From Novipirellula galeiformis (GTDB lineage: Bacteria; Planctomycetota; Planctomycetia; Pirellulales; Pirellulaceae), in NCBI RefSeq assembly GCF_007860095.1, contig NZ_SJPT01000007.1, forward strand, positions 310,001 through 374,000: a DNA stretch of 64,000 bases, in the 5' to 3' direction. Below are positions 12,236 through 60,744 of the stretch, one piece after another. Numbering within the stretch: the first letter of the stretch is position 1; every line of letters starts with the position of its first letter. The position numbers were made by a program, and so were the translations under genes. The notes beneath the pieces were generated by a model that did not search any database, had not been told where the DNA came from, and saw only the letters and a program-made list of their open reading frames with translations.

Positions 12236-13791
12236 GTCGACGTTTGAGTGTCCATGGTCTAAGCAAACGTTACGCCACGGTGACGGTATTGCGTGATGTC
12301 TCCCTCGCGGTCGCAGCGGGGGAAATCCATTCGCTATTGGGCGCCAACGGAGCGGGCAAGAGCACGTTGTGCAAGATCATCAGCGGGTTGATTCCCGCCT
12401 CGGCCGGTACCATGACACTCGATGATCAACCCTTTGCTCCGGAATGCAAACAAGATGCCGAGCGGGCCGGGGTTGAGATTGTGCAACAGGAATTGAACCT
12501 AATTCCGACATTGTCCGTCGCCGAAAATTTATTGTTGACCCGCTTGCCTCAGCGCTTGGGTGTGATCGACTCGCGGCGTCTTGAACGGGTCGCCCAATCC
12601 GTTTTGGATCGCTTTGGGTTGACCGACGTCGCCACAGACACCTTGGTGGGATCGTTGGGGGTCGGACGCCAACAAATGATTGAGATTGCGGCTGCCTTGG
12701 CTCGCGATTGCAAACTATTGATTTTGGATGAACCGACCGCCGCCCTCTCGGGCAGCGAAGCGGAGCAATTGTTCGAGCATCTCAAGCGATTGCGAAGCGA
12801 AGGCGTTGCGATCTTGTACATCAGTCACCGCTTGGATGAGGTCGCGCGACTGAGCGATCGTGTCAGCGTGCTTCGCGATGGCGCGTTTGTGGGAACCCAT
12901 GACACGCAATCGTTGACGACCGACGCAATGATCGGTTTGATGAGCGGCGAACCCACGACGTCGGCCAAACCGAATCACGTTTGTCATGCAACCGATGCGA
13001 TCGCGATGCGTGTCGATTCGATCAATGGCGGGCTTGTTCATGACGTCTCGTTCGCTGTCAAACGGGGCGAGCGATTGGGGATCACCGGATTGGTGGGATC
13101 GGGACGGACCGAGTTGTTGCGGGCGATTTTCGGTGCCGACGTGGCTTCCTCAGGCCATCTCACCCTGGGAAACGACCCCACACCTCGTCGGTTTCGGCGT
13201 CCCAGTGAAGCGGTCGCTGCGGGCTTGGCGATGGTCACCGAGGATCGCAAACAGGATGGATTGCTGCAGAGCCAATCGATTCGTAGCAACACGACGCTGA
13301 GCAGTTTGTGGCGGCGATTTTCTCGCGCCGGGCTGGTGCGCGGTGACGCTGAACGGCGCGTCGCCGAGCAGATGCGAGATGCAATGCAGACGCGCTGCGA
13401 GAGTGTCGAGCAGTGGGTTGGCACGTTGAGTGGCGGCAATCAACAAAAGGTCGCCGTGGCGAAGTGGTTGGTGCGAGATGCAGAGGTATTTTTGTTTGAC
13501 GAGCCGACGCGAGGCATCGACGTCGGAGCCCGTCGTCGGATCTACGAAGTGTTTGAATCGTTGGCCCGCGAGGGCAAAGCGTTGGTAATCGTCAGTAGCG
13601 ATTTAGACGAATTGTTTGAAACGTGTGACCGCATTGCCGTGATCTCGGCGGGGCGCCTCGTGGCAACCTTCGCTCGCGACGAGTGGAGTCAAGAAAAAAT
13701 CATGCAGGCATCGTTCTCGGGCTATCAAGACCGCTTGCTGGGCAATCCCTTGCCCCATGAATCGGTGATCGCAACCCCAAGTTCAATTTGA
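12232..13791 (+). CDS. rbsA: Ribose-type ABC transporter ATP-binding protein, two ABC domains
   Basis: 519 residues, starting with GTG. The first ABC domain has Walker A GANGAGKST (37-45), a degenerate signature SLGVGRQQM and Walker B LLILDEPTAAL; the second has a modified Walker A (GLVGSGRTELL) and a full signature LSGGNQQKV followed by FLFDEPTRGIDVGARR. This intact/degenerate pairing is characteristic of RbsA/MglA sugar importers. It energises import through RbsC. rbsC begins two bases after the stop. Confidence 0.93.
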   Translation: MSRRLSVHGLSKRYATVTVLRDVSLAVAAGEIHSLLGANGAGKSTLCKIISGLIPASAGTMTLDDQPFAPECKQDAERAGVEIVQQELNLIPTLSVAENLLLTRLPQRLGVIDSRRLERVAQSVLDRFGLTDVATDTLVGSLGVGRQQMIEIAAALARDCKLLILDEPTAALSGSEAEQLFEHLKRLRSEGVAILYISHRLDEVARLSDRVSVLRDGAFVGTHDTQSLTTDAMIGLMSGEPTTSAKPNHVCHATDAIAMRVDSINGGLVHDVSFAVKRGERLGITGLVGSGRTELLRAIFGADVASSGHLTLGNDPTPRRFRRPSEAVAAGLAMVTEDRKQDGLLQSQSIRSNTTLSSLWRRFSRAGLVRGDAERRVAEQMRDAMQTRCESVEQWVGTLSGGNQQKVAVAKWLVRDAEVFLFDEPTRGIDVGARRRIYEVFESLAREGKALVIVSSDLDELFETCDRIAVISAGRLVATFARDEWSQEKIMQASFSGYQDRLLGNPLPHESVIATPSSI

Positions 13792-44607: not shown

Positions 44608-47600
44608 TTATCGATTGACGGTATCGAGATACTCGTTCGTTTCCGCCAGTGTCGAGTCAAGTTGGTGGTGCAAATGCTTGAGTAACTCCGCCACGTTTTC
44701 GAACTGATTCGTTTTGCCGACCTTCTCCACCTCGATCGTGCAATCCGCCAGCGCCGTGGCTCCGATCGCCATCGCCGCCCCCTTCAAGGTGTGAGTCGAA
44801 GTCTTCAGCAACGTCGCATCCCGCGCCTCCGCAGCGTTGTCGATCAACTGGATCAACGTGGTACTCTCTTCGTCAAACGCTTTGAATAGCTCAACGACCA
44901 ACGACGGATTATCACCAATGGTGTTGTGCAACTTCGTCCATTCGATCGCTGGCGAAACCGAATTGGCGGACTGCGTTGTGCCGTCATGCTGCGGCGACGC
45001 TGAGATACGTTGCTGGGCCGACGCAGGATCAGCATCCGGCAGGGCATCAGCAGGTGAGGCATGCGGCGACGATTCATCAGGCCGTGCGGCATCTGGCGGC
45101 GAGTCATCTGGCGGCGAGTCATCTGGCGGCGAGTCATCCGGCGGCGAGTCATCCGGCGGCGAGTCATCCGGCGGTGGGGAGCCAGCGTCCTGGCCGGTTG
45201 TGGACGCAGCTGCGGAGGACACCCCTTCAGCGGACTGCGTTTTAGCGGACTGCGTTTTAGCGGGCTGGGCTTTAGCGGGCTGGGCTTTAGCGGGCTGGGC
45301 TTTAGCGGGCTGGGCTTTAGCGGGCTGGGCTTTAGCGGGCTGGGCTTCGGAGGGATGCGTTTCGGAGGACGGTGCTTCTCCGGACTGGGCTTCTGCGGAC
45401 TCGGCTTCTGCGAATGAGGCTTTACCGCACTTCGCTTCCGGCAGCACTTTGGCTAATTTCTCAAACAGGTTTGCGATGCGGATCGGTTTCGGGACATACT
45501 CGTCCATGCCCGCCTCGAGACACCCTTCACGATCCCCTTTCATCGCATGAGCGGTCATCGCAATGATCGGCAACCGAACTCCGGTCCCTTGTTCGGCTTC
45601 ACGAATTTTACGAGCAGCGGTCAATCCATCCATTTCCGGCATTTGAATGTCCATCAAAACCAGATCAAAGGATTCCCGCTGGACCGCGTCAACGGCTTGT
45701 TGACCATCGCAGACGACGGTGACTTGGTGCCCATGCTTGCTGAGCACTCCGACTGCAAGCTTTTGATTCACCAAATTGTCTTCGGCAAGCAAAATGTGCA
45801 ACGGCCCGATCGCATGCTGCGGCACCGGATGGGACTCGTGATGATCTTCGGTAACATTGACTCCTAGGGCGCGGACGACGGAATCGAACAACTCGGACTG
45901 TTTGACCGGTTTCATCAAGCGATCGGTGACACGAAATTCATCGCGTCGTTGCTTATCGCCTAGACGTCCGCCAGAGGTCAGCATGATGATCGGCATGTCG
46001 TTGATGCATTGTTCATGACGCACCCGTTTCGCGAACTCAAAACCATCTTGGTCGGGCATATTGACATCGGCGATCGTCAATCCAAACGGCGACTTGGCTC
46101 GGATCGCCGCTCGGATCTCCTTGATCGCTTCTTCGGTGCCACACGCCAGCGTCGGTTGCATGCCCCAATTGCTCAACATTTCGTGCAGAATCAAACGATT
46201 CGTTTCGTTATCATCGACGACTAACACGCGCGTGCCGCCCACCACCACCATGCCTCGTTGGTTCGTCGCGGACACCCCTTCGTCGGCAATCCCCAACTGG
46301 ACAGTAAAATAAAATCGGCTTCCCACCCCAACACTACTTTCGACCCAAATGGTTCCGCCCATCATGCTGACCAACCGGGATGAAATCGCCAGCCCCAAAC
46401 CGGTGCCACCGTAGCGACGGGTCGTGGACGAATCGGCTTGCTCAAACTCATTGAACACCGTCCTACATTTGCTGGTAGCAATCCCAATGCCCGTATCGCG
46501 AACACACACGCTCAATTCGGTTTGCGAGCGTGATTGTGATTTCAATTCCACGTCCACCACCACCTCTCCCTGTTCGGTAAACTTGATCGCATTGCCGACC
46601 AAATTGATCAACACCTGGCGAATTCGCCCTGCATCACCGACGACATAGGGAGGGATATCCGGGGCGACACGGAAGGCCAATTCGAGCCCCTTGGCATGGG
46701 CGCGAACGGCCAACGTTTTCATCGTATCGCCGAGCGTTTCTCGTAGATCGAAAGGAATGCTGTCGATTTCGAGCATGCCAGCTTCGATTTTGGAAAAGTC
46801 CAACACGTCGTTGATAATCGACAACAGCGCATCGCCGGACTCACCCACCATCCTTAAATATCCACGCTGATTCGCATCGAGCTTGGTGTCCAATAGCAAC
46901 TCGGTCATCCCGATGATGGCGTTCATCGGGGTGCGAATCTCGTGGCTCATGTTGGCCAGGAAATCGCTCTTCGCTCGATTCGCAGCGTCGGCCGCCTCCA
47001 TCGCCCGGAGCAACTCTTCGGACGCAAGTTTGCGAGCGGTGATGTCGCGTCCAATTCCCACAATTCCGATCACCGATCCGTCGCTGCCTCGCAACGGAAC
47101 CTTGGTCGTCAATAGCCAACGTTCCTGACCGTTGACATCTTGAGCCGACTCTTCTTGATCGATCAACGGGGTCCCCGAACGGATCACATTCTGGTCATCG
47201 GTGACGTAGTTACAAGCCAATTCGGCGGGCAGAAAATCGTAATCCGTTTTACCGACGATCTGCTCGACCGTTTCCAAGTTAAATAACCCGAGCAAGGCGG
47301 TATTGCCAGTCACGAATCGTCCGTAACGATCTTTGACATAGATCAAATCGGGAATGTTGTTGGTGATCGTTTTCAACAAATCTCGTTCGCGAGCCAGCTC
47401 CTGTTCGGCGCGAATTTGCTGAGTCACATCGCGTGAAATCCCAAACGTTCCGATGATTTTCCCGTGAGGATCACGCAGCGGCAATTTGGTCGACGAGCAC
47501 CATGTATCCTCGCGGTCCGGCCACGTCTCGCGTTCCACTTGGGCAATGATCGCTTCTCCGGTCTTCATGATCCGTCGCTCGTCGGCCAAGGCGGATCGGG

Positions 47601-48570
47601 CATGATCGATGCCAAAGAAATCCGCATCCGATTTGCCCACCGCATCGGCCGGATCGGTCAAGCGAAATAACTTGGCATGCGCACGACTAATGCGGATAAA
47701 GCGGCTCTCGCTGTCCTTGAAATAGATTGCATCAGGAACGTTCTCGAGCAACGTGTCCATTAAAAACCGAGCTTGCTGTAATTCAACCTCGGTCGCTTTT
47801 TGGCTGCTGACATCCCAAAAAATCACCTGGATCCCAACCACCTTTCCTTTGGTATTGAAGCTCGGCAGCTTTAAGACTTCGACGTAAACGACCGACCCAT
47901 CCGCGGCAATGTTCTCTTCGACCACATGCTCCGGCAAACCGCTGGACATGACCGCTTGATCATTCTCAACATAAAATTTTGCCAACTCGGCTGGGTAGAT
48001 GTCGAAATCGGTTTTCCCGATCAACTCTTCCACAGGCTTCCCCACTGCGTTACAAAAGTTGTCGTTGGCGTATTGAATACGCCCCTGTTTGTCCTTGCGT
48101 GTGACATTCAATTGCACATGTTCGCGAAGCGTTTGACGCTTGCTGAAGAACTCCAGTGGCGTGGGCAGCGAAAAATCTTTAGGCGAAATCGCGTGCGCCA
48201 CCGCATCAATCCGAATCGGGTCGCCGTTTGCATCCTTCACGACCGACAAACGCTCATCCAACCAAGTCACTTTGCCCGCAGGATCGACGACACGGTACTT
48301 GTGCCGCAGCGCCCCCTCGTCGCACACGTTGCGGATGTTGCGGCTGACCTCGATACGATCTTCGCTATGGATCAAGCGCTGACGCACTTCGACGGTGCCC
48401 AACGGCTGCGCCGAAACACCGAAAATCGATTCCGCGGCGCGATTCATATACAACAGCATTTTGCCGTCGATCGTCGATGACCAAATCACGTCCGAAACGT
48501 GATCCATAATCGCTCGCGTGGAATCGAACGGCACCGACGTTGTCGCAGACGCAGAGACAGGGTCATTCAT
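44608..48570 (-). CDS. Hybrid sensor histidine kinase (4 PAS, HisKA, HATPase, 2 REC, Hpt)
   Basis: 1320 residues, no membrane segment evident, so a cytoplasmic sensor. Four PAS domains (about 20-130, 150-260, 270-385, 400-515), the last three with [27 protein letters not shown] motifs. Histidine kinase with phospho-acceptor His 543 ([11 protein letters not shown]), N-box and G-boxes at about 660-770. Two receiver domains ([28 protein letters not shown] with [12 protein letters not shown]). A low-complexity linker of about 110 residues, rich in QPAKA and PPDDS repeats, then an Hpt domain ([13 protein letters not shown], the phosphorelay His). It likely feeds the receiver-HATPase protein downstream. 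The stimulus is unknown; PAS type may imply redox or ligand sensing. Confidence 0.93.
45095..45345 (-). repeat. Two coding minisatellites in the hybrid kinase linker
   Basis: Five 15-bp units GGCGGCGAGTCATC(T/C) (45095-45169; encode PPDDS) and six units TTTAGCGGGCTGGGC (45256-45345; encode QPAKA). Copies are near-identical at DNA level, so unit number can change by slippage without breaking the frame, lengthening the linker between the second receiver and Hpt domain. Confidence 0.9.
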
Positions 48571-49839: not shown

Positions 49840-50665
49840 ATCAGATGACGGTTTTCCCATTTTCCTGTCCCCCATTTTCCTGTTCTCATTTCCGGCAGGG
49901 GCTCGCGAGACTCTGCCGACGCGCGAAAGGTTTTAACAGAAAGATGGGGGACAGGAAAATGAAAGCGGATCACGTGCTTGGGGGTTTTCCAATTTTTCTG
50001 TCCCCCATTTTCCTGTTCTCATTTCCGGCATGGGCTTCGGGAACGGCCGGGCGAGTTTGCCGAGGCAGCGGGCTCGCGAGACTCCGCCGACGCGCGAAAG
50101 GTTTTAACAGAAAGATGGGGGACAGGAAAATGAAAGCGGATCGCGTGCTTGGGGGTTTTCTCATTTTTCTGTCCCCCATTTTCCTGTTCTCATTTCCGGC
50201 AGGGGCTTCGGGAACGGCCGGGTGAGTATGCCGAGGCAGCGGGCTCGCGAGACTCTGCCGACGCGTGAAAGGTTTTAACAGGAAGATGAAGGGACAGGAA
50301 AGTAAAAGCGGATCACGTGCTTGGGGGTTTTCCAATTTTTCTGTCCCCCATTTTCCTGTTCTCATTTCCGGCAGGGGCTTCGGGAACGGCCGGGCGAGTT
50401 TGCCGAGGCAGCGGGCTCGCGAGACTCTGCCGACGCGTGAAAGGTTTTAACAGAAAGATGGAGGGACAGGAAAATGAAAGCGGATCACGTGCTTGGGGGT
50501 TATCCAATTTTTCTGTAGGTCGTGTCGCTCGACGGTGGTCCGCGTTCTGGCGAACGCAGCTACGGGAACGGCAGCAGCTCGCGGTTCCTAATAGCCGCTG
50601 ATTCGACAGGAAGGTTAAAGCGAATCAGGTGCTTGGGTATTCCCATTTTCCTGTTCCCCATTTTC
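49840..50665. repeat. Tandem array of ~172-bp repeats
   Basis: Four main copies, with the shared segment CCCATTTTCCTGTTCTCATT starting at 49871, 50004, 50175 and 50347 (spacing 133, 171, 172), and a diverged fifth from about 50505. Each has GGTTTT(A)ACAGAAAGATGGGGGACAGG-like and its inverse CCTGTCCCCCATTTTC, so each unit can fold on itself. The last copy merges with a CGTTCTGGCGAACG fragment (near 50543) from the ~330-bp family. Related segments with ATGGGGGACAGAAAAATGGG occur at 54.06, 54.44 and 58.13 kb. Confidence 0.85.
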
Positions 50666-50781: not shown

Positions 50782-52029
50782 TCACGCCAGTGAGCGGTAG
50801 ATCTCGGCCATTTTTTCCATCCGCTTTTGAAAACAGAATTTGTCCACCACCGTCTCCCTGCCTCCTTGCCCCAGCCGACCTGCCAGTGCGGCATCCTCGA
50901 GCACGCGTTTGATCTCCGCTGCCAACCCCTCGGGATCGCTCGGCGACACCAGCAACCCGTTGCGGTGGCCATCGATCAACCGCGGCACGCCTGCGATCCG
51001 CGTGGCCACGATCGGCACTTCGAACGCCATCGCTTCCAACAACACGTTCGGTAACCCTTCCCGCAAACTGCTCAGCGCATACACGTCAAACGCTTGGTAA
51101 TAGGTTTCCGGGTTCGCCACAAAGCCGGCCATCCGAATCCGCTCGCTCAATCCTTGCTGTTCGATCTGAGTCTTCAGCGTCTCAGCGAGCGGCCCATCGC
51201 CGACGATCACCAGCCCGACATCGTGTCCTTGTTGGACCAGTTGTCCCACGGCATCGATCAGAAACGCGAACCCTTTTTCCTCCGACAAGCGTCCCACGGC
51301 GCCAATCAATTTACGCGATTCCGGCCAATCGATCGCGGCCTTGGCCTGGGCAATCGTTTGTCGCCGGCGATATTGCTCGGTATCGATCGCATTGTCGATC
51401 ATCGACAAACGGTCCGCGGGGACACGTCCCCGACGGCACGCATCAAACAAATCGGTCGAGACACAGACGACCGCCTCGTAGCGCCGCAAGCACCAACGGT
51501 CGATGGCGTAATAGAGGGGCGTTTTCCAGGTATTGAGCACCCAGCCGTGCACCGTGGAAACGAGCTGCATCGGGTAGCGACGCCGCAACCACAAGCCCGC
51601 CAGATTGCTTTTGTAATCGTGGCCATGCCAGATCAAGGGACGATTCCCGAGCCGTTTGAGCAGCTCGTCCAGCCGAGCGTAGATGCGGTAGTCGGTCGCC
51701 CCGGCATCGTCCACCGCGACCAACGGCGCATCGGCCGTTTCGGCGCGGCGTTGGATCGCAGCAAACCCTTCATCGGCTGGGTCACGCAGATAAACACAAA
51801 CGCAGTCGTAGCCCAGAGGGTGCAAGAAACGAGGCGAATGGAGGATCGTTTTTTCCGGTCCTCCCCCAGTACCACTGACGATCCGCACGTGCAGCACCAG
51901 CGGATGCGAGCTCGGCTCGGACAACAGAGAGCGTGCCCGCGCATTGGCCGTGACACCGCTTGCGATCGTTTCATTACCGACAGATTCATCAACTGTCGGG
52001 GCGTCATTCATCAATGAATTCAAACTCAT
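50782..52029 (-). CDS. Glycosyltransferase family 4
   Basis: 415 residues from ATG 52029; a TTG at 52038 is the alternative. GT-B fold: an N-terminal acceptor part beginning HVRIVSGTGGGPEKTILHSP, and a C-terminal Glycos_transf_1 domain with IGAVGRLSEEKGFAFLIDAV, VIVGDGPL, GFVANPETYYQAFDVYALSSLREGLPNVLLEAMA (the EX7E-like motif) and VSPSDPEGLAAEI. It transfers a sugar from a nucleotide donor in exopolysaccharide or glycolipid synthesis. A 19-bp palindrome lies about 90 bp upstream. Confidence 0.9.
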   Translation of the reverse strand: MSLNSLMNDAPTVDESVGNETIASGVTANARARSLLSEPSSHPLVLHVRIVSGTGGGPEKTILHSPRFLHPLGYDCVCVYLRDPADEGFAAIQRRAETADAPLVAVDDAGATDYRIYARLDELLKRLGNRPLIWHGHDYKSNLAGLWLRRRYPMQLVSTVHGWVLNTWKTPLYYAIDRWCLRRYEAVVCVSTDLFDACRRGRVPADRLSMIDNAIDTEQYRRRQTIAQAKAAIDWPESRKLIGAVGRLSEEKGFAFLIDAVGQLVQQGHDVGLVIVGDGPLAETLKTQIEQQGLSERIRMAGFVANPETYYQAFDVYALSSLREGLPNVLLEAMAFEVPIVATRIAGVPRLIDGHRNGLLVSPSDPEGLAAEIKRVLEDAALAGRLGQGGRETVVDKFCFQKRMEKMAEIYRSLA

Positions 52030-52120
52030 GCGTCTCAATACGAATCCGAAAAGGGCAGCTCAGCCACCGAGGAAGCTAGGTTTTACGCCAACAGCGTTCG
52101 GTCCCCAAGGCCCAAAGTCG

Positions 52121-52143: not shown

Positions 52144-52430
52144 CACCGTCCCACCGTCCCACCGTCCCACCGTCCCACCGTCCCTTCTTCCTCCGTCCCT
52201 CCCACCACCATCCCTTCTTCTTCCCCACTCCCCACTCCCCACTCCCCACTCCCCACTCCCCACTCCCCACTCCTCACTCCCTCTCCTTGTCTCCTTGTCT
52301 CCTTGTCTCCTTGTCTCCTTGTCTCCTTGTCTCCTTGTCTCCTTGTCTCCCTGTCTCCTTGTCTCCTTCACTCCTTCACTCCTTCACTCCTTCACTCCTT
52401 CACTCCTTCACTCCTTCACTCCTTCACTCC
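52144..52430. repeat. Four adjacent polypyrimidine microsatellites
   Basis: About 290 bp of almost pure C/T on the plus strand (A/G on minus). In order: five copies of CACCGTCC (52144-52183); about six of CCCCACT (from 52223); about ten of CTCCTTGT (from 52284); and about nine of CTCCTTCA (to 52430). The arrays touch the 3' end of the VanZ-like gene at 52424. Strand asymmetry and mirror symmetry make triplex-type structure possible. Confidence 0.9.
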
Positions 52431-53803
52431 CCTCCAGCCCACGTCACGACGACGCGGTAGCTGAGCCAGCCGCCGAGCGCACCGGCGGCATAGATCAACA
52501 CGTCCGAAGCATCAGCGTAAAAGGGGACCAGGTAGACCTGGGCCACTTCGATCGTCAAACCGGTGCCCAGCACCACCAGGATCGAGGTCAGCGAGGCGAC
52601 GACGCCAGGAGTTTGCTGGCGTGAACCAGGGCGTGAAAAAACGTGGGCCAGCGCGACTCCCAAAGCGGCAAACAGGATCATCTTGCCGACCAGATTCGAA
52701 CCGGCCAGGAATTCGGAGGTGTAGTAATACTTCACAAACGGAGGCGACCAGAAGTCGATCCAGCCCGCATCGATTTCAGCCCGGTTTGCGACCCGTTCAT
52801 ACCTGGCCAAAAACGCGACAAAGATGCCCAGCACTACCAACAACAGCGACGCACAGCGAACGCTGACTCGGTCCGTGATTCGCTGAATCGCAGTCCAATG
52901 AGTCGCCAGCACCACGCCGATCGCGGCCCCGGCCCAGCCACAGACGACATCGGCTAGCGTGGTGTAGCGAGTGAAGATGGGCGCTTGCAGCAATTCAATC
53001 AAGATTGGAAAGCCCAACATGATCGCCAGCCCGCGGTGCTGCATGCGGGCCAAGACGATCAAAATTCCCAAGGGCACCATCCGCAAGCTTGAAACGGCCA
53101 GCGCGATCGCCAGTTCCAGCAGCCCTCGTTGCGGATCAAGCGCCACGACGTGCAAGCCAGGCACCCAAGCGAATCTCCCCGCATTCGCTTTCGCAGCCCA
53201 CTCCGCTTGGCTGAACATGACGTCCAGCGGCAGCACGGAGTAGACGAGCAACAGCGAGCAAAACGACCACAGCAGCACGGTGGCGATCCGAGACGACGAA
53301 GACGCATCCCAGCTCAACGTACGGACGCGTCGCCAAACCGCCAGCGCCGGTCGACCGACGGCGATCCATAGCAGTGGCGAGATCGTGGCTGCGACACAAC
53401 CTGCGGCGATATCGTTGCCCGAGACGGTTCGCCGTGGGTACCACAATTGCAGAAATTCGATCCCCACGATCAACGTGTTGCCAAACAGGATGATGGCGAA
53501 CAGCGAGGCTAGGTAGCGGAGGGTCAGACGTCCGTCGCGGTCGGCTGCCCCGGCCAACAGAAATCCGAAGGGCAGCGCGACCAATCCGTTGGCGACCCAG
53601 TCGGCGCGGCGATCGACGTTCAAATTTAGCCAGCGGAGCGAGCGGAATCGCTCGATCGCCTCGTCGAGTGCCAGCGGACGGTACTCCAGCGGCACGATCG
53701 ACGCGTAGACCAATGCCACCGCAGCGAGCGAGCCCAGGACGGCCAGCCAAACACGGGGCGAGCCATCGTCCAGCGGTCGGGGAAAACGATCCAGCTCGTT
53801 CAT
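52424..53803 (-). CDS. Membrane protein with three VanZ-like units
   Basis: 459 residues from ATG 53803 (MNELDRFPRP); upstream codons are repeat-derived. About 12 membrane helices. Three successive segments share the VanZ pattern P-G.. helix, E..Q, polar loop, (A/D)..D, Gly-rich helix: LPFGFLLAG...VGIEFLQLWYPRRTVSGNDIAAG; VPLGILIVL...LIELLQAPIFTRYTTLADVVCG; FAALGVALA...LTIEVAQVYLVPFYADASDVLIYAAG. The VanZ family is linked to teicoplanin resistance and to exosortase/exopolysaccharide clusters, but its biochemistry is unsettled. The 3' end meets the microsatellites at 52430. Confidence 0.75.
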   Translation of the reverse strand: MNELDRFPRPLDDGSPRVWLAVLGSLAAVALVYASIVPLEYRPLALDEAIERFRSLRWLNLNVDRRADWVANGLVALPFGFLLAGAADRDGRLTLRYLASLFAIILFGNTLIVGIEFLQLWYPRRTVSGNDIAAGCVAATISPLLWIAVGRPALAVWRRVRTLSWDASSSSRIATVLLWSFCSLLLVYSVLPLDVMFSQAEWAAKANAGRFAWVPGLHVVALDPQRGLLELAIALAVSSLRMVPLGILIVLARMQHRGLAIMLGFPILIELLQAPIFTRYTTLADVVCGWAGAAIGVVLATHWTAIQRITDRVSVRCASLLLVVLGIFVAFLARYERVANRAEIDAGWIDFWSPPFVKYYYTSEFLAGSNLVGKMILFAALGVALAHVFSRPGSRQQTPGVVASLTSILVVLGTGLTIEVAQVYLVPFYADASDVLIYAAGALGGWLSYRVVVTWAGGE

Positions 53804-53834
53804 CAAAACGTTACCGCGGTGAGGGAGAAAGTCG

Positions 53835-53853
53835 TTGTTTGCTCCGCAAACAA
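53835..53853. repeat. 19-bp palindrome, copy 2
   Basis: Identical to the copy at 52121; 32 bp upstream of the VanZ-like start codon. Confidence 0.9.
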
Positions 53854-53929
53854 AACGCGGCGGCAAGCAACCCAACGTCGTACAGCATAACGGCAAGCCG
53901 CGGCAGCGTCAGAGCCAACCAGATAGTCG

Positions 53930-53948
53930 TTGTTTGCTCCGCAAACAA
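53930..53948. repeat. 19-bp palindrome, copy 3
   Basis: Identical to the copy at 52121; followed by AACGC and CAACGCGTCAACGAGT, also seen after copy 4. Confidence 0.9.
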
Positions 53949-54215
53949 AACGCAGCAGCAAGCCCCCCCAACGCGTCAACGAGTGCCCGCGCAACATAGG
54001 CGACAATAAGAATCCCGAGTCGCAGCCAAACAATCCCCCCGGCCCAAAGATGAACAGGAAAATGGGGGACAGAAAAATGGGAATACCGAGCACCTGATCT
54101 GGCTCTATCTTCCTGGCTCCATTTTTCTGTCAAAACAGGGCATCCCTAGAAGATCAATCGTTGTCCGAACAAACAAGCTCAGGTGCAAGCTTGCCGTTTC
54201 ATCACGTTTTCCGTA

Positions 54216-54277
54216 GTGGACGAGGCAACGAGTCCCTGTTTTTTTTTTTTTTGCCATGGACTCGTTGCCTCGTCCAC
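54216..54277. repeat. 20-bp-arm inverted repeat with T-rich loop, copy 1
   Basis: Arms 54216-54235 and 54258-54277 are perfect reverse complements (GTGGACGAGGCAACGAGTCC), enclosing a 22-nt loop with a run of 14 T. Copy 2, with identical arms, is at 58405-58466. Confidence 0.92.
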
Positions 54278-54651
54278 GACGCTCGACCCTAATTCCTAGC
54301 TGTTACGCAACATTCGCGTTCATCCGCGCCATTCGCGGGCAAAACCCGTCCAAAATGCGCCCGCGAATGACGCGAATGAGCGCCAATAGGAATCCCGAAC
54401 CGCAGCTAGACAATCCCCCCTACCCGAAGATGAACAGGAAAATGGGGGACAGAAAAATGGGAATACCGAGCACCTGATCTGGCTTTATTTTCTGTCTCCA
54501 TTTTTCTGTCAAAACAGGGCATCCCTAAAAGCTCATGCCCGACGAGCGACAAAAAGATGGGGGGCAAAAAGAGGAGGAAACCGTCATCCGATCACTCTCA
54601 ATTTCCCTGTCAAAACTGGGCATCCCTCGGCGCAGTGCAGCGGGCTACCGC

Positions 54652-56847
54652 TCAATCGTCTTTGGTAAACGCGATCCGTTTGGTCCACGTCAACGGGTCC
54701 AACCAGGTACGCATCTTCGGCAGCGGATAATGCTCAAGCGACCACAACGCGAAACAACGTTTTCGTGAGCGAAAATCGGGACCCGCAGGGATCGCGGCGA
54801 CTCGCATCGTGCGGTAGATCCATTGGCGTCGCAAACGCTGTACGCTTCCTCCACTCATCTGCTCGATTACCTCCGCCGGACAATCCAATTGCAACAGCTC
54901 CATCGCCAAGCTTAACATACAAGCGACTGGCATTCCGAGCTGCAATTCGCACGTCCGCCGGATCAATTCCTGCCAATCGAACGGAGCCGTGTCGGATCTC
55001 TCACCGGATTGCGCCCCGGCCAAATCGCACGGCTGCTCGATCATACAGCTGATGTCCCAAAGATCGCGAAACGCGCGCTGAAACTCACCGGTTCGGGCCA
55101 GATTCAATGCCGAATGAAGCACGCGATCGACTCGGTCGAGAATCGAAAAGGGGCTGTCCGGTAGGCGTATCGAACGGGCAATCAATTCATCGGCCACAAA
55201 GCTGCGTGGGTCCGAAATGGGTAACAGTCGAAAATGGACATCCACTTCAATCCGCCGATAAGCATGTTTCAACGGAGCCAACTCGTGCAGCCAACGACGA
55301 TAGTAACGGCAATCGGCCTCGGATAAATCGTCATCCACCGCGTAACCCACCCGACGCAGCGCCGCTTCCACCCGCGGCAAGGCCGCTTCGCTCACTAAGA
55401 GATCGACGTCATTGGTTCGTCGGCCGCCCGCCCAGGGCATCGCTGCGGCGAGATAGGCCACTCCTTTCAATAACACCACTGGATCGTCCACCGCCGCCAA
55501 CGCCGTTTTCAGTTGGCGCAGCTCGAATCCAAACGTGATGTCGTTGAATCGGGTGGACTGAATTTCGTGTTCCAATCGTGAGCGAGCCGGCGCAGGGATC
55601 CATTCCCAGGCGGCACTTTCGCGCGCACGCCAAGCGACCCGGGAAAGCAGCCCGGTGTGCGAGGCGACGAGTGTCAGCGCATCCCACTGGGGCAATGACA
55701 CGCTTTCCAGTGGCACACGCCCACGCAGCAGGTCAATCATCTGGGTCAGATCCTCGTTCCAAATGTCTGCGTTTGCCGCGACTCCACGCGGTGGCGCTGC
55801 GGACACCTTCGTGCAAACCGACACAGGATCCGCCGCGCTGAGCGCTGCGGTTGAAGCGCAGGGCCGGTTCCTACCGGGCGACTCGTGCACGCTACGCTTT
55901 GGATCCGAACGCTCCGTGGCGGCGATCGCAACCTCGTTCCAATCATGATCTCGCAAAAATCGCTCGGCATCGGCCGCCTCGTCGTAAAACAGTTCAAAAG
56001 CAGGCACGTGTTTGGCTAAACGCACCGTCGCCTGAAATCCCGACTCACCGAGTTGACGATAATTAATCCCGAACTGGTTCAAGCGGGTGAACAACCCACC
56101 CGGGGTGACTGGTTTTAGTTCCAAACGTTGGCCCGGACCGCGGCGAGGGAACACGATTGCGGCGGGGGAAAAGGATTTACCTCTTAGCGCATGCGACTTC
56201 GCCGTGGAACGAAGATGAGCGATTTGTACTGGAGGATCGACGATTCTGCCGTACGGGCCGAACACCGCATCGCTGCCATAACGCTCGGAGATCAGTTCCA
56301 ACGAATGGCCCTTCAAGATGGTCGGACGGCCGAGCGCCGTCAGGGTCAAGTCATCGAGATCAAACATCGAGATTTCATCACTCAGCAATCCCCATCCGCA
56401 CATCATCAAGGTTGACGCGAGGGTGCTTTTCCCTGCTCCCGAGTTACCGGGAAAGACGAGCGTTTGATTCTCCGAACCGGGGATTAGCGCCGAGGCGCCG
56501 TGGATGGCAAGATGTCGGTGCGAGGCACGAAAAAAACACCAACTGCAAACCCATTCCATCCCCGCCACCGTCAAGCGGCGCGGCCACGCTTGCCAAATAT
56601 GTCCATTGACCGTGGCGACTACCATCCTTCTGCCACGTTCAAACCTAGGATCCAACCGCATCCGAAAATCTGAAAACTCGTACGGCGGCACCAGCGGATG
56701 ATCCCCATGTAAAACGTGGACCGCTTGAGCAATCAAAGGAAGCTCCGACTGGATCCGAAACGTGTAAGGACCAAACCGAAGTCCGATCCCCTCGTTTCGT
56801 AGTCGCGTCGCGAGTTCGTCAAGAGTGACGTCGGCGATCTTCAGCAC
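54652..56847 (-). CDS. HPr-kinase-like domain fused to a nucleotidyltransferase
   Basis: 731 residues from GTG 56847, which overlaps the end of the PqqD-like gene by 7 bp. Residues 1-320 resemble HprK-related kinase A ('HPr-rel-A') proteins: His 116 in IHGASAL, a P-loop GNSGAGKST (134-142) and SDE at 156-158. Residues about 365-731 resemble the NTP_transf_5 family of nucleotidyltransferases: LLKGVAYLAAAMPW, R476/R477 and TNDVDLLV (D480, D482), then EVDVHFR (D536, H538). A variable linker (about 310-360) joins them. In other clusters these are separate proteins beside a PqqD-like partner; fusion means one substrate is probably handled by both. The chemistry here (phosphorylation, nucleotidylation, or both) is inference. 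Confidence 0.8.
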   Translation of the reverse strand: MLKIADVTLDELATRLRNEGIGLRFGPYTFRIQSELPLIAQAVHVLHGDHPLVPPYEFSDFRMRLDPRFERGRRMVVATVNGHIWQAWPRRLTVAGMEWVCSWCFFRASHRHLAIHGASALIPGSENQTLVFPGNSGAGKSTLASTLMMCGWGLLSDEISMFDLDDLTLTALGRPTILKGHSLELISERYGSDAVFGPYGRIVDPPVQIAHLRSTAKSHALRGKSFSPAAIVFPRRGPGQRLELKPVTPGGLFTRLNQFGINYRQLGESGFQATVRLAKHVPAFELFYDEAADAERFLRDHDWNEVAIAATERSDPKRSVHESPGRNRPCASTAALSAADPVSVCTKVSAAPPRGVAANADIWNEDLTQMIDLLRGRVPLESVSLPQWDALTLVASHTGLLSRVAWRARESAAWEWIPAPARSRLEHEIQSTRFNDITFGFELRQLKTALAAVDDPVVLLKGVAYLAAAMPWAGGRRTNDVDLLVSEAALPRVEAALRRVGYAVDDDLSEADCRYYRRWLHELAPLKHAYRRIEVDVHFRLLPISDPRSFVADELIARSIRLPDSPFSILDRVDRVLHSALNLARTGEFQRAFRDLWDISCMIEQPCDLAGAQSGERSDTAPFDWQELIRRTCELQLGMPVACMLSLAMELLQLDCPAEVIEQMSGGSVQRLRRQWIYRTMRVAAIPAGPDFRSRKRCFALWSLEHYPLPKMRTWLDPLTWTKRIAFTKDD

Positions 56848-57188
56848 GGAGACTCCTGGTCAATCAAGCCAACCAACGCCATTTGCGACAATGCCTCGGC
56901 AATGTAGTTCTGAAACGTGGCGTCATAAGCCAGCTCGACCTCCGCGGCCACCATTTTCCCCAGCTCGCCTTCCCCACTCGCCTGCCCAGCACGTTGCATC
57001 AAGAAACGCAAAACAGCGACATCGATCGCGTTCATCAGGTAGGAATCCCAATAGGAAGCACTGAAGACGGCAAACTCGTTCTCGGCCAACCGCTCGATCA
57101 AAATCTCGTTCTGTGAGCAACGCCAACGACGCTCCAGCGGCGTAGCGGCGGTCACAGCGATCTCCGTTTGGCTCGTTTCGGTAGTCAT
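56841..57188 (-). CDS. PqqD-like peptide chaperone of the HPr-rel-A system
   Basis: 115 residues. The size, charged winged-helix-like segments (RWRCSQNEILIERLAENEFAV, LMNAIDVAVLRFLMQRAG) and the C-terminal pattern YIAEALSQMALVGLIDQ match the PqqD/RRE fold, which binds the leader of a precursor peptide and presents it to a modifying enzyme. It overlaps the kinase-nucleotidyltransferase by 7 bp, so the two are coupled. This gives the strongest hint that the target of the fused enzyme is a peptide. No Cys-based motif or other catalytic residue is seen. Confidence 0.7.
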   Translation of the reverse strand: MTTETSQTEIAVTAATPLERRWRCSQNEILIERLAENEFAVFSASYWDSYLMNAIDVAVLRFLMQRAGQASGEGELGKMVAAEVELAYDATFQNYIAEALSQMALVGLIDQESPC

Positions 57189-57490
57189 GGTTTAAGCTGG
57201 GGCGAACGGTCGGCGCGTGAGAAACCAGTTACCACCGAATCTTGAACATCGCGGGAGACGACGGTGAGACCGCCGCAGGGAAGAAACAGGAGAAAATCGG
57301 TTGCCACCCGATAATTAGACATCACGAAGTGTAGAAGAGAATTCGCCGCGCCATCGATCTGGCGTCAAGCAGGAAGCACAATACACAATCGTCGCTTTCT
57401 TTTTCATTCCACGGCCGCGAAGTCAATCAGCGCCAACCCGCGATACACGGAGCGCGAATCAGCGAGTGTGATATGGCGATCGGCGTGTCA
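57189..57490. other. Spacer between the PqqD-like gene and the small peptide gene
   Basis: 302 bp without a recognisable gene on either strand. It must contain either the promoter of the PqqD/kinase pair or a leader connecting it to the peptide gene upstream; no repeat module seen elsewhere in the window occurs in it. Confidence 0.45.
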
Positions 57491-57700
57491 CTATGGGGTC
57501 GTCGGAGGCACACTTGGTCCGGAAACCTTCGACGTAGGGCCTTGAGCGTGGGCGGTTTGCGCCGAGCCGGCGACGATCATCGGGCCGCCGACCACCGCCG
57601 CCATCATCAGCATGCGACGTCGTTGCGGATTGACTTGCGTCGCTGTGGTGTGATCCACGGCATCGTCATTCAACTCAGGATTCTCGTTCTCTAGATGCAT
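57491..57700 (-). CDS. Small exported peptide, candidate substrate of the kinase/PqqD pair
   Basis: 69 residues from ATG 57700, with AGGA about 10 bp upstream; a TTG at 57721 is less likely. The N-terminal 26 residues are acidic (MHLENENPELNDDAVDHTTA), then comes an Arg cluster (QRRRMLMM, twin-arginine-like), a hydrophobic stretch and an AHA-Q cleavage site. The 17-residue remainder is QGPTSKVSGPSVPPTTP, rich in Ser, Thr and Pro. It lies 302 bp upstream of the PqqD-like gene on the same strand. A leader followed by a short Ser/Thr-rich core is what a phosphorylated RiPP-like precursor might look like, but no homologue is recognised and it could be an unrelated small secreted protein. Confidence 0.6.
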   Translation of the reverse strand: MHLENENPELNDDAVDHTTATQVNPQRRRMLMMAAVVGGPMIVAGSAQTAHAQGPTSKVSGPSVPPTTP

Positions 57701-57933
57701 ATCAATTTTTTTCCTGTGCAATCAGCGCGGTCACTCGCAGGCGAGACCAGCGATGGGTCCCAATACTATAGTTACCAAACGAGCCCGCAACACGGTTTAG
57801 GTCACGGAAAAGCCAATCAGGCCTCAAAAAGTGTACAGAAGCATCGCGGGGTCAGGCAAGCGGGCAGCAAAAAACGAAAGCAAACCAGTCAAAACAGGGG
57901 GCTACGGCTCACGGCAGGCTGCTCAGATAGTCG

Positions 57934-57952
57934 TTGTTTGCTCCGCAAACAA
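57934..57952. repeat. 19-bp palindrome, copy 4
   Basis: Identical to the copy at 52121; starts the right-hand mosaic repeat block. Confidence 0.9.
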
Positions 57953-58404
57953 AACGCACCAGCAAACTTCCCAACGCGTCAACGAGTAACCGCCCAACAT
58001 TTGCGTCGATTGGCGTGATTCGCGGGCAGAACAAAAAAGCAAAGGGGGCCCGCCAATAACGCGAATAGGCGCCATTAAGAATCTCGAGCCGCAACCAGAC
58101 AATCCCCCATGCCCGAAGATGAACAGAAAAATGGGGGACAGAAAGATGGAAATACCGAGCACCTGATCTGGCTTTATTTTCCTGTCTCCATTTTTCTGTA
58201 AAAACAGGGCATCCCCAAAAGCTCATGCCCGATGAGCGACAAAAAAATGGAGGGCAAAAAGATGAGAAAACCGTCATCCGATCACTCTCAATCTTCCTGT
58301 CCCTTCAATACTCTCTGTCAAAACGGGGCACGCATCGGAAGATCAATCGTTGTCCGAACAACCAAGCTCAGCTGCAAGCTCGCAGTTTCTTCACGTTTTC
58401 CGTA

Positions 58405-58466
58405 GTGGACGAGGCAACGAGTCCCTGTTTTTTTGTTTTTTGCCATGGACTCGTTGCCTCGTCCAC
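58405..58466. repeat. 20-bp-arm inverted repeat with T-rich loop, copy 2
   Basis: Arms 58405-58424 and 58447-58466 are identical to copy 1 (54216-54277); the loop differs only in that a G interrupts the T run. Confidence 0.92.
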
Positions 58467-58789
58467 GACGCTCGACCCTAACTCCTAGCTGTGACACAAC
58501 ATTCGCGTTCATTCGCGGGCAAAACCCCCGGCCGAAGTGGGCCCGCGAATGACGCGAATGAGCGCCAATAGGAATCCCGAGCCGCAGCCAGACAATCCCC
58601 CGGGCCCGAAGATGAACAGAAAAATGGGAATACCGAGCACCTGATTGGGCTTTATCTTCCTGTCAAAACAGGGCATCGGTCGCGTCCCCCCACACCACGA
58701 GCGCTAACCTTTTAAAAAGCGAGGTGTTTGGAGAAAAAGAACGTTCAGCCTGTAATTCACGCCGCTGTGCCACTGATGAATTGTGGGTA

Positions 58790-59570
58790 AACAGTGTCCT
58801 CTTAATCGAAACGGTCTCGTCGCTTTTCATCCTTAATCTTAATCTTCACGACTTGGCTCCAGTCCAGGTGTGGCTTGCGCGGACGGGAGTAAGATTAGGA
58901 GTTGACGACGGGGTGGACCACGTTCTGGCGAACGTAGCTACGGTTGAAGGCCCTCGTCAATCTTCGACGGCCGAGTCATCCGCTACATGCCTTCCGATTA
59001 GTGTTCAATTAGCGAAGATCAGTGTTCGCGAAGCCAAGTCTTCTTAACCACCCAACACATCAGTGTGCAACCGCACGAAACTGCCGCATCCCTTTTGTTT
59101 CTTAATCTTAATCCTACTCTTAATCCTAATCTTCACGACTTGGCTCCGGGTCCAGGTGTGGCTTGCGCGGACGGGAGTAAGATTAGGAGCTGACGACCGG
59201 GGCGACCACGTTCTGGCGAACGTAGCTACGGTTGAAGGCCCACGTCAATCTTCGACGGCCGAGTCATCCGCTACAAGCATTCCGATTAGTGTTCGATTAG
59301 CGAAGATCAGTGTTCGCGCAGCCAAGTCTTCTTGACCACTCAACACATCAGCGTGCAACCGCACGAAACCGTCGCATCCCTTTGGTTTCTTAATCTTAAT
59401 CTTAATCTTAATCTTAATCTTAATCTTAATCTTAATCTTAATCTTAATCCTAATCTTCACGACTTGGCTCCGGGTCCAGGTGTGGCATGCGCGGACGGGA
59501 TTAAGATTAGGAGCTGACGACGGGGTGGACCACGTTCTGGCGAACGTAGCTACGGTTGAAGGCCAACGAG
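58790..59570 (+). repeat. Three-unit array of the ~330-bp repeat family
   Basis: Same family as 34530-35815, opposite orientation. The marker CACGACTTGGCTCC occurs at 58847, 59134 and 59458 (spacing 287 and 324; the larger second spacing is due to an expanded hexanucleotide). Each unit carries ACGTTCTGGCGAACGT, GTAGCTACGGTTGAAGGCC and GAAGCCAAGTCTTCTT-like segments. The last unit stops abruptly two bases from the glycosyltransferase stop codon at 59572. Confidence 0.85.
59389..59448. repeat. (CTTAAT)10 microsatellite
   Basis: Ten perfect copies of the hexamer CTTAAT, followed by one CCTAAT, inside the ~330-bp repeat array. Other copies of the family hold only one to three units here, so this is a recent expansion. 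Confidence 0.95.
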
Positions 59571-59571
59571 C

Positions 59572-60744
59572 TTATGCGGATGCGAAAACGTATTCGCCGA
59601 ACCGCTCCGCCTTGGATTGCCAATCTTCACTAGCCAACCGCTGCCGCCGGCGATCCAGTTGCGTGAGTGGGTCGGAATCGCGACTCGCATCACCGGTCTG
59701 CTCATTACCCATCATCCAGTCCAACGTGGCGGCGACAAATGAGGCTTCGTCGTCAACCATCTTCAGACAATCTTGCCAAGGCACGACGGCGGGCAAATCC
59801 GCTGCGACGACCGGCAGCATCGTCGCCAAGTATTCTTTTAGCTTCAGCGGCTGCATCGCCCGCGTGACGGGCAAATCGGCGTACGGCATGATCAACACCC
59901 GTGCCGCCTGGGCCAGCGCCGGCAATTGCTCAAACGCCAATGGTCCGATCGCGGCAATCCGCGGGTGCGTGAGCAAGCGAGGATCCGGATCTTGCTGCGG
60001 CCCGGCCAGTACGATCGTCCCGGCCGCGCCCCGATCCCGCAGCGCATCGGCCAAGCCGAGCACCCAATCGGCATTCATCCGCCGATCGACCACGCCCCAA
60101 AACACGGCCAAAGGAGTGGGCAAGTGCTCGATTGCCGCAGGAGGAGCACAGGTCGGATGGGCCCAGAATGACGAGTCGACGCCATGCGTCAACACGCTGA
60201 CGTGGGCATGCCGCGGCCGGATCGCCGCCGCCAATGGATCGCTGACCGCCACCACCCGGTCGACGCCCGCGATCAACGTTTGTTCCATCTCGCGCATCGC
60301 CGCGGCTGAGAGGCCCGGCCAGACCGAGAAGTCATCGACGCAGTAGTAGACCCAGCGGCGGACCGGTAAGCGGCCGATCAAGTCGGCCGTGATTGGGATC
60401 GTCGTGATCGCGATCGCATCCTGAGCATCGTCGTGCAATTGCCGCGAGAGCAATCGCGCGTTCAGGGCCCGATCCCAGCGGTGGGACATCCAAGGCCACA
60501 TCCGCGGACTGCGGAGCGTCAAGTTCGTAGGGAGTTCGGCGGCAGTGTCTTCGCGATGCATGGCCGCCCACTCGCGCAGTTTGCCGGCGCCGCGGCTCAG
60601 CGTGAGCCGGTCCAGTCGTGGCGGACGCATGCCGATCGTATTGACCCAGGTCACCTCGATCGTGGGCAAGAGCTGCGAGATCAGGTGCTGGCAACTACTC
60701 GGATGCCGCCCCCAATCATCCGAAAAGACAAGCAGTCGGTTCAC
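59572..60744 (-). CDS. Glycosyltransferase (GT-B, group 1 type)
   Basis: 390 residues from GTG 60744, overlapping the previous gene's stop by 4 bp. Relatives include TuaH-type teichuronic-acid transferases: LLVFSDDWGRHPSSCQHL near the N-terminus, YYCVDDFSVWPGLS, VDRVVAVSDPLAAAIRPRH, and a C-terminal donor domain with AVFWGVVDRRMNADWVLGLADAL, VLAGPQQDPDPRL and ARVLIMPYADLPVTRAMQPLKLKEYLATMLPVVAA (containing the E-type donor motif). Probably part of exopolysaccharide synthesis. Its 3' end directly abuts the repeat array. Confidence 0.88.
   Translation of the reverse strand: MNRLLVFSDDWGRHPSSCQHLISQLLPTIEVTWVNTIGMRPPRLDRLTLSRGAGKLREWAAMHREDTAAELPTNLTLRSPRMWPWMSHRWDRALNARLLSRQLHDDAQDAIAITTIPITADLIGRLPVRRWVYYCVDDFSVWPGLSAAAMREMEQTLIAGVDRVVAVSDPLAAAIRPRHAHVSVLTHGVDSSFWAHPTCAPPAAIEHLPTPLAVFWGVVDRRMNADWVLGLADALRDRGAAGTIVLAGPQQDPDPRLLTHPRIAAIGPLAFEQLPALAQAARVLIMPYADLPVTRAMQPLKLKEYLATMLPVVAADLPAVVPWQDCLKMVDDEASFVAATLDWMMGNEQTGDASRDSDPLTQLDRRRQRLASEDWQSKAERFGEYVFASA

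Follow-up and report, generated by a model that had tools for sequence, protein, structure and literature searches.

A candidate pathway for a linear, phosphorylated peptide encoded by a three-gene cassette of Novipirellula galeiformis

Gene arrangement at the locus

The stretch of DNA analysed here, called the window, comprises 64,000 nucleotides of the planctomycete Novipirellula galeiformis (assembly GCF_007860095.1, contig NZ_SJPT01000007.1, positions 310,001 to 374,000). Three neighbouring genes on its minus strand form a cassette. They encode a small peptide with an export-type signal, a PqqD-like protein and a protein in which an HprK-like kinase is fused to an NTP_transf_5-type nucleotidyltransferase. 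The cassette probably represents a pathway for a ribosomally synthesised and post-translationally modified peptide (RiPP), guided by a RiPP recognition element (RRE). Its features were taken from the list of open reading frames (ORFs) and from the analyses named; lengths are in amino acids (aa).

54652..56847, minus strand: HprK-like kinase/NTP_transf_5 fusion gene, 731 aa, GTG start (ORF list, domain profiles)
55951..56784, minus strand: kinase domain, residues 22-299, with H116, P-loop K140 and S156-D157-E158
54892..55689, minus strand: nucleotidyltransferase-type domain, residues 387-652, with D480xD482 and D536
56841..57188, minus strand: gene of the PqqD-like protein, a predicted discrete RRE, 115 aa (TIGR04353 below cut-off; AlphaFold2 and Foldseek)
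57491..57700, minus strand: putative precursor peptide gene, 69 aa (ORF list, own-genome search, counterparts in six other fused loci)
57494..57544, minus strand: predicted mature tail QGPTSKVSGPSVPPTTP, residues 53-69, proposed target of modification (placed by the AxA site)

The PqqD-like ORF and the fusion ORF overlap by 7 bp (56841-56847), and the peptide gene lies upstream, separated from the start of the PqqD-like gene by 302 bp (57189-57490). A preliminary description of this DNA had given the same residue numbers, overlap and gap, and these were found to be correct. The motifs GNSGAGKST (134-142) and TNDVDLLV (478-485), which it had assigned to a single 731-aa protein, were verified in the ORF translation. 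The combination of the three genes was confirmed as more than a chance arrangement, since the fusion is conserved over its full length, the peptides of relatives are under purifying selection and the PqqD-like protein has a predicted RRE fold.

The fused kinase-transferase

Residues 22-299 of the fusion match TIGR04352 (HprK_rel_A) at positions 2-278 of the 280 model positions (163.4 bits, E=5.8e-48). PF14907 (NTP_transf_5) matches residues 387-652 with 129.8 bits, above its cut-off of 31.2. The two-domain architecture proposed earlier is backed by both profiles. For PF07475 (Hpr_kinase_C) no match at E<=0.01 was detected in the whole genome, the fusion included. When a profile of ten kinases was compared with solved structures, HprK was the best match by sequence (E=0.0022, profile positions 117-176).

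The AlphaFold2 model of the fusion (pLDDT 88.7) consists of two folded parts joined by residues 319-356, which are of low confidence (<50). Throughout the matches listed, a Foldseek search with the whole fusion returned phosphoenolpyruvate carboxykinases, and it gave no information on the nucleotidyltransferase domain. We take this fold to be common to HprK. Full-length conservation of the fusion at 50% identity was found in two other genomes. H116, K140 and S156-D157-E158 are kept in the 22 kinase rows compared, with the exception of locus L110 (GDE for SDE), and D480, D482 and D536 are kept in all 24 transferase rows. Judged from these alignments, the catalytic-type residues of both domains are intact.

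Distribution of the cassette in Planctomycetes

With the fusion as query, matches were found in 16 of 246 genomes of an order sample, nine of 199 of a family sample and eight of 392 of a phylum sample; the three samples overlap. A true fusion is present in seven genomes of five genera (the window's own, G164, G204, G329, G377, G375 and G381), all of the window's own family. Split genes occur in two further genomes of this family (G270, G305). The seven fused kinase domains group as a single clade (100/100 support) among 36 kinase rows; this tree leaves 13 of its 33 inner branches open, and its bootstrap values had not stabilised. The spread of the fusion is patchy, as no match was obtained in the family sample for two members of the window's own genus. 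Kinase-only matches were obtained for G396, G415, G659 and G699 in the phylum search.

Three candidates for further fusions were rejected. G758 and G458, outside the family, appeared fused by the length of the open frame, but they contain separate frames divided by a stop. In G089 kinase and nucleotidyltransferase are separate ORFs.

Nine of the 16 matching genomes of the order sample carry the full set of peptide, PqqD-like protein, kinase and nucleotidyltransferase. Whether fused and split forms keep the same neighbours had been raised in the preliminary description; the order peptide, PqqD, kinase, nucleotidyltransferase is kept in both. At two loci (L039, L044) the kinase adjoins an NTP_transf_5 gene, and PqqD-like gene and leader peptide are absent. 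This type is possibly another system with another substrate.

The PqqD-like protein

TIGR04353 scores 21.4 bits (E=3.6e-4) on the 115-aa PqqD-like protein, and no Pfam family matches it. Its AlphaFold2 model has a pLDDT of 91.4. The nearest folds by Foldseek were TbiB1 with leader, PqqD (5sxy) and TfuB1 with leader (6jx3). For TbiB1 with a lasso leader (5v1u) a probability of 1.00, E=2.2e-3 and TMt 0.73 were obtained; the E values start at this match, so that none reaches E<=0.001. In a profile search of the PDB with the PqqD alignment, the designed protein 5h7c came first (E=1.3e-4), TbiB1 second (E=2.4e-4) and TfuB1 seventh (E=0.013). The other nine of the 12 matches were designed or unrelated proteins. 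The designed and unrelated matches were taken as chance. A winged-helix RRE fold of the peptide-binding type is predicted from the model, in line with the PqqD-like call made earlier.

The precursor peptide and its leader

The 69-aa peptide consists of a polar N-terminus, the motif QRRRMLMM, a hydrophobic segment with P-M-I-V, a SAQTAHA site and a tail of 17 residues. Tyr and Trp are both absent. No NCBIfam family matched, and from Pfam DUF3040 alone was returned (E=0.022, below its cut-off). The pattern RR-x-hydrophobic resembles the consensus of the twin-arginine translocation (Tat) pathway. With RRRML in the peptide and TatC encoded in the genome, export by the Tat route is a prediction. 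By sequence the signal resembles a Tat signal, and Sec is also possible.

The peptides of G164 and G204 have the same middle part, RRRML, hydrophobic segment, P-[ML]-IV-AGSAQ-x-A-x-A, followed by a short tail. Such a peptide occupies the same place, upstream of the PqqD-like gene, in all seven fused loci; in L139 and L140 the end of the peptide is overlapped by the PqqD ORF when that ORF is read at its longest. The tails following AxA in the fused loci are QGPTSKVSGPSVPPTTP, DGTGSKASGPSTA, DGGGSGVSGGTITDTDD, SGTGGSGTN, NNGGTNTSAGTGT, GGTTQSCTSAAS and TNGSASATSTGS. Bounded by the predicted AxA cleavage site, they are 9-17 residues long, and Gly, Ser and Thr account for 61 of their 93 residues (66%, n=7 loci). 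In the window's own tail, which contains Ser, the share is 8 of 17 residues. As background, the C-terminal 13 residues of 56 mechanical ORFs (>=250 aa, from five loci) give 22%. Purifying selection was detected for the peptides of relatives, with nonsynonymous and synonymous rates (dN, dS) of 0.13 and 0.84 for G164/G204 and of 0.19 and 0.68 for G375/G381; codon comparisons that include the peptide of the window itself are saturated, and dS is unreliable there.

A leader model was built from nine seeds, namely three fused-locus peptides and six split-locus peptides of the order sample (L033, L034, L035, L036, L038, L041) first chosen by eye. It replaced a regular-expression scan, which had given many false ORFs. 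Among the 2,387 ORFs from 20 planctomycete loci that had not supplied seeds, the model gave nine matches with E<0.1 (2.1e-13 to 2.7e-4). These are four fused loci (L131, L138, L139, L140), two split loci of the same family (L141, L142) and three split loci of other families of the phylum (L178, L179, L180). Exactly the same nine loci are matched by the PqqD model. The other eleven (L009, L037, L039, L040, L042-L048), which have kinase, nucleotidyltransferase or both, contain neither a PqqD-like gene nor a leader. Thus, the leader peptide accompanies the PqqD-like gene and not the kinase or the nucleotidyltransferase alone. With the seeds included, a leader ORF was present in 7/7 fused loci, in 8/8 split full cassettes of the order and family samples, six of which are the seeds chosen by eye, and in 3/3 loci from other families.

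The preliminary description had asked whether a small ORF with leader, hydrophobic segment and Ser/Thr tail recurs near homologues, and had named the lack of a conserved one as grounds for refutation. A small ORF does recur, which leaves the proposal unrefuted on this point, and the polar start, RR, the hydrophobic stretch and an AxA-like site were found at fused and split loci. Searching the own genome with a leader model of eight rows (A3), which includes the window peptide itself, gave 73.4 bits for this peptide and 20.1 bits for the next ORF.

Related loci in Proteobacteria

The proteobacterial set comprises the best 80 of at least 123 confirmed relatives from named genomes. The nucleotidyltransferase starts within 3 kb downstream of the kinase in 71 of these loci, and a PqqD-like gene lies directly upstream of the kinase in 62. 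The nine-seed profile was run on all 10,484 ORFs of the 80 loci irrespective of position. All 16 matches with E<=1e-3 were on the same strand and fell between -1500 and -150 relative to the kinase match, a slot that contains 352 of the ORFs (3.4%). At E<=10, 45 of 89 leader-model matches fell inside this slot. Three rounds of retraining raised the number to 72 ORFs with E<1e-3 in 71 of 80 loci (63 with the ORF in the slot, eight elsewhere in the locus), a partly circular count as the model was retrained on those ORFs. Of the 72 leaders, 70 contain RR. For ten leader ORFs of both phyla, matches to Pfam and NCBIfam families did not go below E=0.013.

The shared part of the precursors is the leader, and the length of the mature part ranges from 9 to over 200 residues. 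The mature part differs between groups and is longer in Proteobacteria (median 143 residues). Of the 78 rows with a settable site, 71 have a Ser among mature residues 1-10; nine of 87 rows had been dropped for lack of a site, and a few sites are clearly misplaced. Ser makes up 15.6% of the first 15 mature residues and 7.7% further on.

Two precursor types were observed among these loci. The motif PSGxxSGNxSxHG followed by SPGYWK-like residues occurs in the mature part at L056, L060, L063, L071, L074 and similar loci; for the L056 and L063 precursors scanned, no Pfam or NCBIfam family was detected. A separate sphingomonad type (L102, L115, L117, L124 and similar) has a mature part of about 95 residues with ASVxxCxIPVPD. 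In a Pfam tally of 91 neighbours of nine proteobacterial loci, polysaccharide, regulatory and other genes were found, and NTP_transf_5 alone (six members) exceeded four matches.

Genomic surroundings

The genes next to the cassette were identified by domain profiles.

50782..52038, minus strand: family 4 glycosyltransferase
52424..53896, minus strand: VanZ-like membrane protein
59572..60744, minus strand: glycosyltransferase upstream of the peptide gene

In L003 and L004 the fusion is followed by an ORF visibly similar to the VanZ-like protein, and L139 encodes a VanZ protein near the fusion. Glycosyltransferases are found in a like place or nearby at the fused loci L031, L139 and L140. From 50.8 kb to the end of the window and over the next 39 kb, genes for glycosyltransferases, the VanZ-like protein, a Wzy-type ligase, acyl- and sulfotransferases, a sugar-phosphate transferase, a tyrosine autokinase, an XrtA-type polysaccharide deacetylase, stp1 and an exosortase are present. 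The autokinase (TIGR01007), the XrtA deacetylase, stp1 and the exosortase (TIGR02602) score above their cut-offs. The exosortase gene (G000:C7:409620-410372) is found on this contig at a distance of about 43 kb from the cassette, and the interval contains polysaccharide genes. Hence, the surface-polysaccharide context suggested earlier holds, and the cassette sits in an exopolysaccharide/exosortase island.

The cassette is located between two partly matching, repeat-rich intergenic blocks (53826-54611 and 57925-58628), whose repeat pairs share 73-94% identity. The sequence GTCGTTGTTTGCTCCGCAAACAAAACG occurs in four exact copies (52117, 53831, 53926, 57930; expected 0). The cassette may have been moved or duplicated as a module. 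Further repeats were seen at 49948-50464, where a 174-nt unit is present between genes in three head-to-tail copies at a spacing of 171-172 nt, and at 59388-59469, where an array of TCTTAA-type 6-mers lies near repeated blocks of 145 and 272 nt. A 1320-aa ORF at 44608-48570 reads like a hybrid sensor kinase and has AKAQP and DDSPP low-complexity tracts towards its C-terminus.

Discussion

We consider it probable that the cassette is an RRE-guided pathway of RiPP type with a linear, phosphorylated product, in which the RRE presents the leader and kinase and transferase modify the tail in turn before export. On the sequence side this is supported by the conserved gene set, the precursor family linked to the PqqD-like gene, the predicted RRE fold, the intact catalytic-type residues and the polysaccharide context. 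The earlier suggestion that both domains act in turn on a peptide is supported to this extent. We infer that this peptide is bound, phosphorylated and further modified by a second transfer, and likewise its route of export and its final role. The PqqD-like RRE would bind the leader of the 69-aa precursor and present it. The HprK-like domain would phosphorylate Ser/Thr in the short tail, and the NTP_transf_5 domain might then transfer a sugar or nucleotidyl group onto the tail phosphate. This sequence of phosphorylation and transfer is proposed because the precedents of the linear polyphosphorylated peptides (LPP) and of pseudomycoidin fit it. The modified tail would be exported and released at AxA by an ordinary signal peptidase I, as the Tat-like signal of RR plus hydrophobic segment and the AxA site suggest. 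The product could take part in assembly or decoration of the exopolysaccharide encoded by the surrounding island.

Several points weigh against this interpretation. Both TIGR matches stay below their curated cut-offs (163.4 vs 200 bits for the kinase domain and TIGR04352, 21.4 vs 35 bits for the PqqD-like protein and TIGR04353). Scanning of a subset of the surrounding ORFs revealed no gene for a dedicated signal peptidase or exporter; the ABC ATPase at 12232-13791 belongs to a sugar-uptake set. The enzymes can occur without the peptide, since seven of the 16 matching order-sample genomes show no leader ORF in the sequence examined. In G110 and G229 the kinase lies beside the nucleotidyltransferase, in G165, G177, G217 and G241 the two are apart, and all six have neither PqqD nor leader; the contig of the seventh, G028, is merely 3 kb long. 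Nine of the 80 proteobacterial loci lack a leader at E<1e-3 even with the retrained model, whose count has the circularity mentioned above. The same model is weaker on planctomycete loci; it misses L179 and gives L140 no better than E=0.01. An HPr protein is encoded in the genome (G000:C8:190289). Finally, deletion of lppN, the transferase gene of the LPP pathway, caused no detectable change in its test host (PMC13381572). The transferase step therefore has a mixed precedent.

Of the other explanations, the one that survives best takes the leader for a common Sec or Tat signal conserved for export and has the PqqD-like protein recognise a different region of the peptide or a different target altogether. 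The leader model finds 32 of 246 order-sample genomes at E<=0.01, and 25 places score at most 32 bits; 15 of these 25 are in ORFs of 395-557 aa resembling ordinary Tat-type proteins, as this explanation would have it. In contrast, the nine best matches (61-74 bits) are the nine genomes with the full cassette, eight of them being within the model and the ninth, G089, belonging to the same genus as a modelled one. Blind planctomycete loci reach 17-47 bits. Furthermore, positions other than RR and AxA, namely P-x-hydrophobic and TL or AGSAQ, recur in many leaders, although the Pro is not constant in Proteobacteria. We regard this explanation as doubtful.

Somewhat more doubtful still is the view that the substrate of the enzymes is a polysaccharide or lipid carrier and that the small protein is exported without modification, as an accessory of exopolysaccharide formation. 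The position inside the exopolysaccharide/exosortase island, the export-type signal of the precursor itself and the occurrence of kinase and nucleotidyltransferase without PqqD and peptide would fit such a role. However, the set includes a protein of predicted RRE fold, the structurally solved relatives of which bind leader peptides, and the loci with the peptide coincide exactly with those that have the PqqD-like protein. The precursors share their leader and vary in the mature part, and the same enzyme pair is known from LPP and lasso peptide clusters (PMC13381572, PMC9266682).

To the idea that the fusion is an HPr(Ser) kinase or another metabolic regulator with the peptide gene as a chance neighbour we give little credence. 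The genome encodes HPr and no classical HprK (PF07475) was found in it, and HprK is the closest solved structure to the kinase profile by sequence. On the other hand, the HPr gene is on another contig, merely 16 of 246 order-sample genomes match the fusion, PF07475 does not match it, and the partner genes and the precursor recur with the kinase in two phyla. Because of this synteny an HPr kinase role appears unlikely. A degenerate or incomplete lasso-peptide cluster, suggested by lasso B1 proteins among the best RRE matches and by the same tailoring enzymes in paeninodin-type clusters (PMC9266682), is very improbable, as no B2 or cyclase was detected in the subset of ORFs scanned around the cassette, the PF13471 matches are in ORFs of 895 and 623 aa on other contigs, tails are as short as 9 residues and the precursor, having no Tyr or Trp, has no Y/WxxP.

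The RRE-guided modification of the peptide could be taken further. The cassettes of Planctomycetes and Proteobacteria may form one distinct, widespread class in which the leader is itself a Tat-like export signal. The RRE would hold this signal as a proofreading chaperone until the fused kinase-transferase has added a phospho-sugar or nucleotide to the Ser/Thr/Gly tail, and the exported product would then act as protein primer or anchor of the neighbouring surface polysaccharide. We consider this extended form rather unlikely.

Such cassettes are classified by their gene types, and no named target was found for them; the precursor family tied to them in two phyla gives a candidate. If the proposed pathway is true, phosphorylated linear RiPPs would extend beyond Bacillota, the leader would double as an export signal and peptide modification would be linked to exosortase-type exopolysaccharides. 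The fused enzyme with its 17-residue tail would be a compact model for the function of NTP_transf_5 proteins.

Comparison with known systems

In the openly licensed literature no paper was found on the family names of these cassettes (TIGR04352, TIGR04353, NTP_transf_5); by title and abstract the LPP paper and papers on lasso peptides alone were relevant. The precursor family and its tie to the cassettes appear undescribed in this literature, while each enzyme type is already known.

The cassette resembles the HPr-rel-A cassettes (TIGR04352/TIGR04353 with PF14907) in the order of PqqD-like protein, HprK-related kinase A and NTP_transf_5. We take PqqD, kinase and nucleotidyltransferase to be the usual make-up of such cassettes, which agrees with the loci examined here. 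It differs by the TIGR scores below cut-off and by the fusion of kinase and nucleotidyltransferase. By their one-line descriptions, the TIGR04352 and TIGR04353 models name no substrate. With the XrtA exosortase/PEP-CTERM loci for exopolysaccharides the contig shares exosortase, XrtA deacetylase and stp1; the cassette forms a module of its own on one flank of this island.

For DUF2063-associated RREs with DUF2282 precursors, an RRE combined with a signal-peptide precursor without a specific recognition motif is described (PMC12710340), as proposed here; the enzymes are different there, and a Sec-type signal is followed by a variable leader. In the paeninodin and pseudomycoidin pathways an HprK-like kinase phosphorylates a Ser of the precursor. 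For pseudomycoidin, phosphorylation is due to PsmK, and PsmN, annotated as nucleotidyltransferase, is needed for hexoses on the phospho-Ser (PMC9266682). These systems differ in having a B2 peptidase and a cyclase, a threaded product and a C-terminal phosphorylated Ser (PMC9266682).

The cassette also resembles the LPP pathway, in which the linear precursor is presented by an RRE, Ser3 of the core receives several phosphates from LppK and the leader is cut off by an enzyme of signal-peptidase type (PMC13381572). LPPs are described as restricted to Bacillota (Nat Commun 2026, PMC13381572). Their leader motif YxxPxVL is absent here, where the precursor lacks Tyr and Trp and the leader is of the RR-hydrophobic-AxA type. 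LPP clusters encode their own SipW-like SpI peptidase and an MsbA-like exporter, neither of which was among the subset of ORFs scanned around the cassette. Furthermore, the present cassette is from a planctomycete, has kinase and transferase fused and has a predicted tail of 17 aa. Both systems combine a discrete RRE, an HprK-like kinase, an NTP transferase and a short precursor with conserved leader, variable core and Ser near the start of the core, and both are located at a polysaccharide locus without a cyclase.

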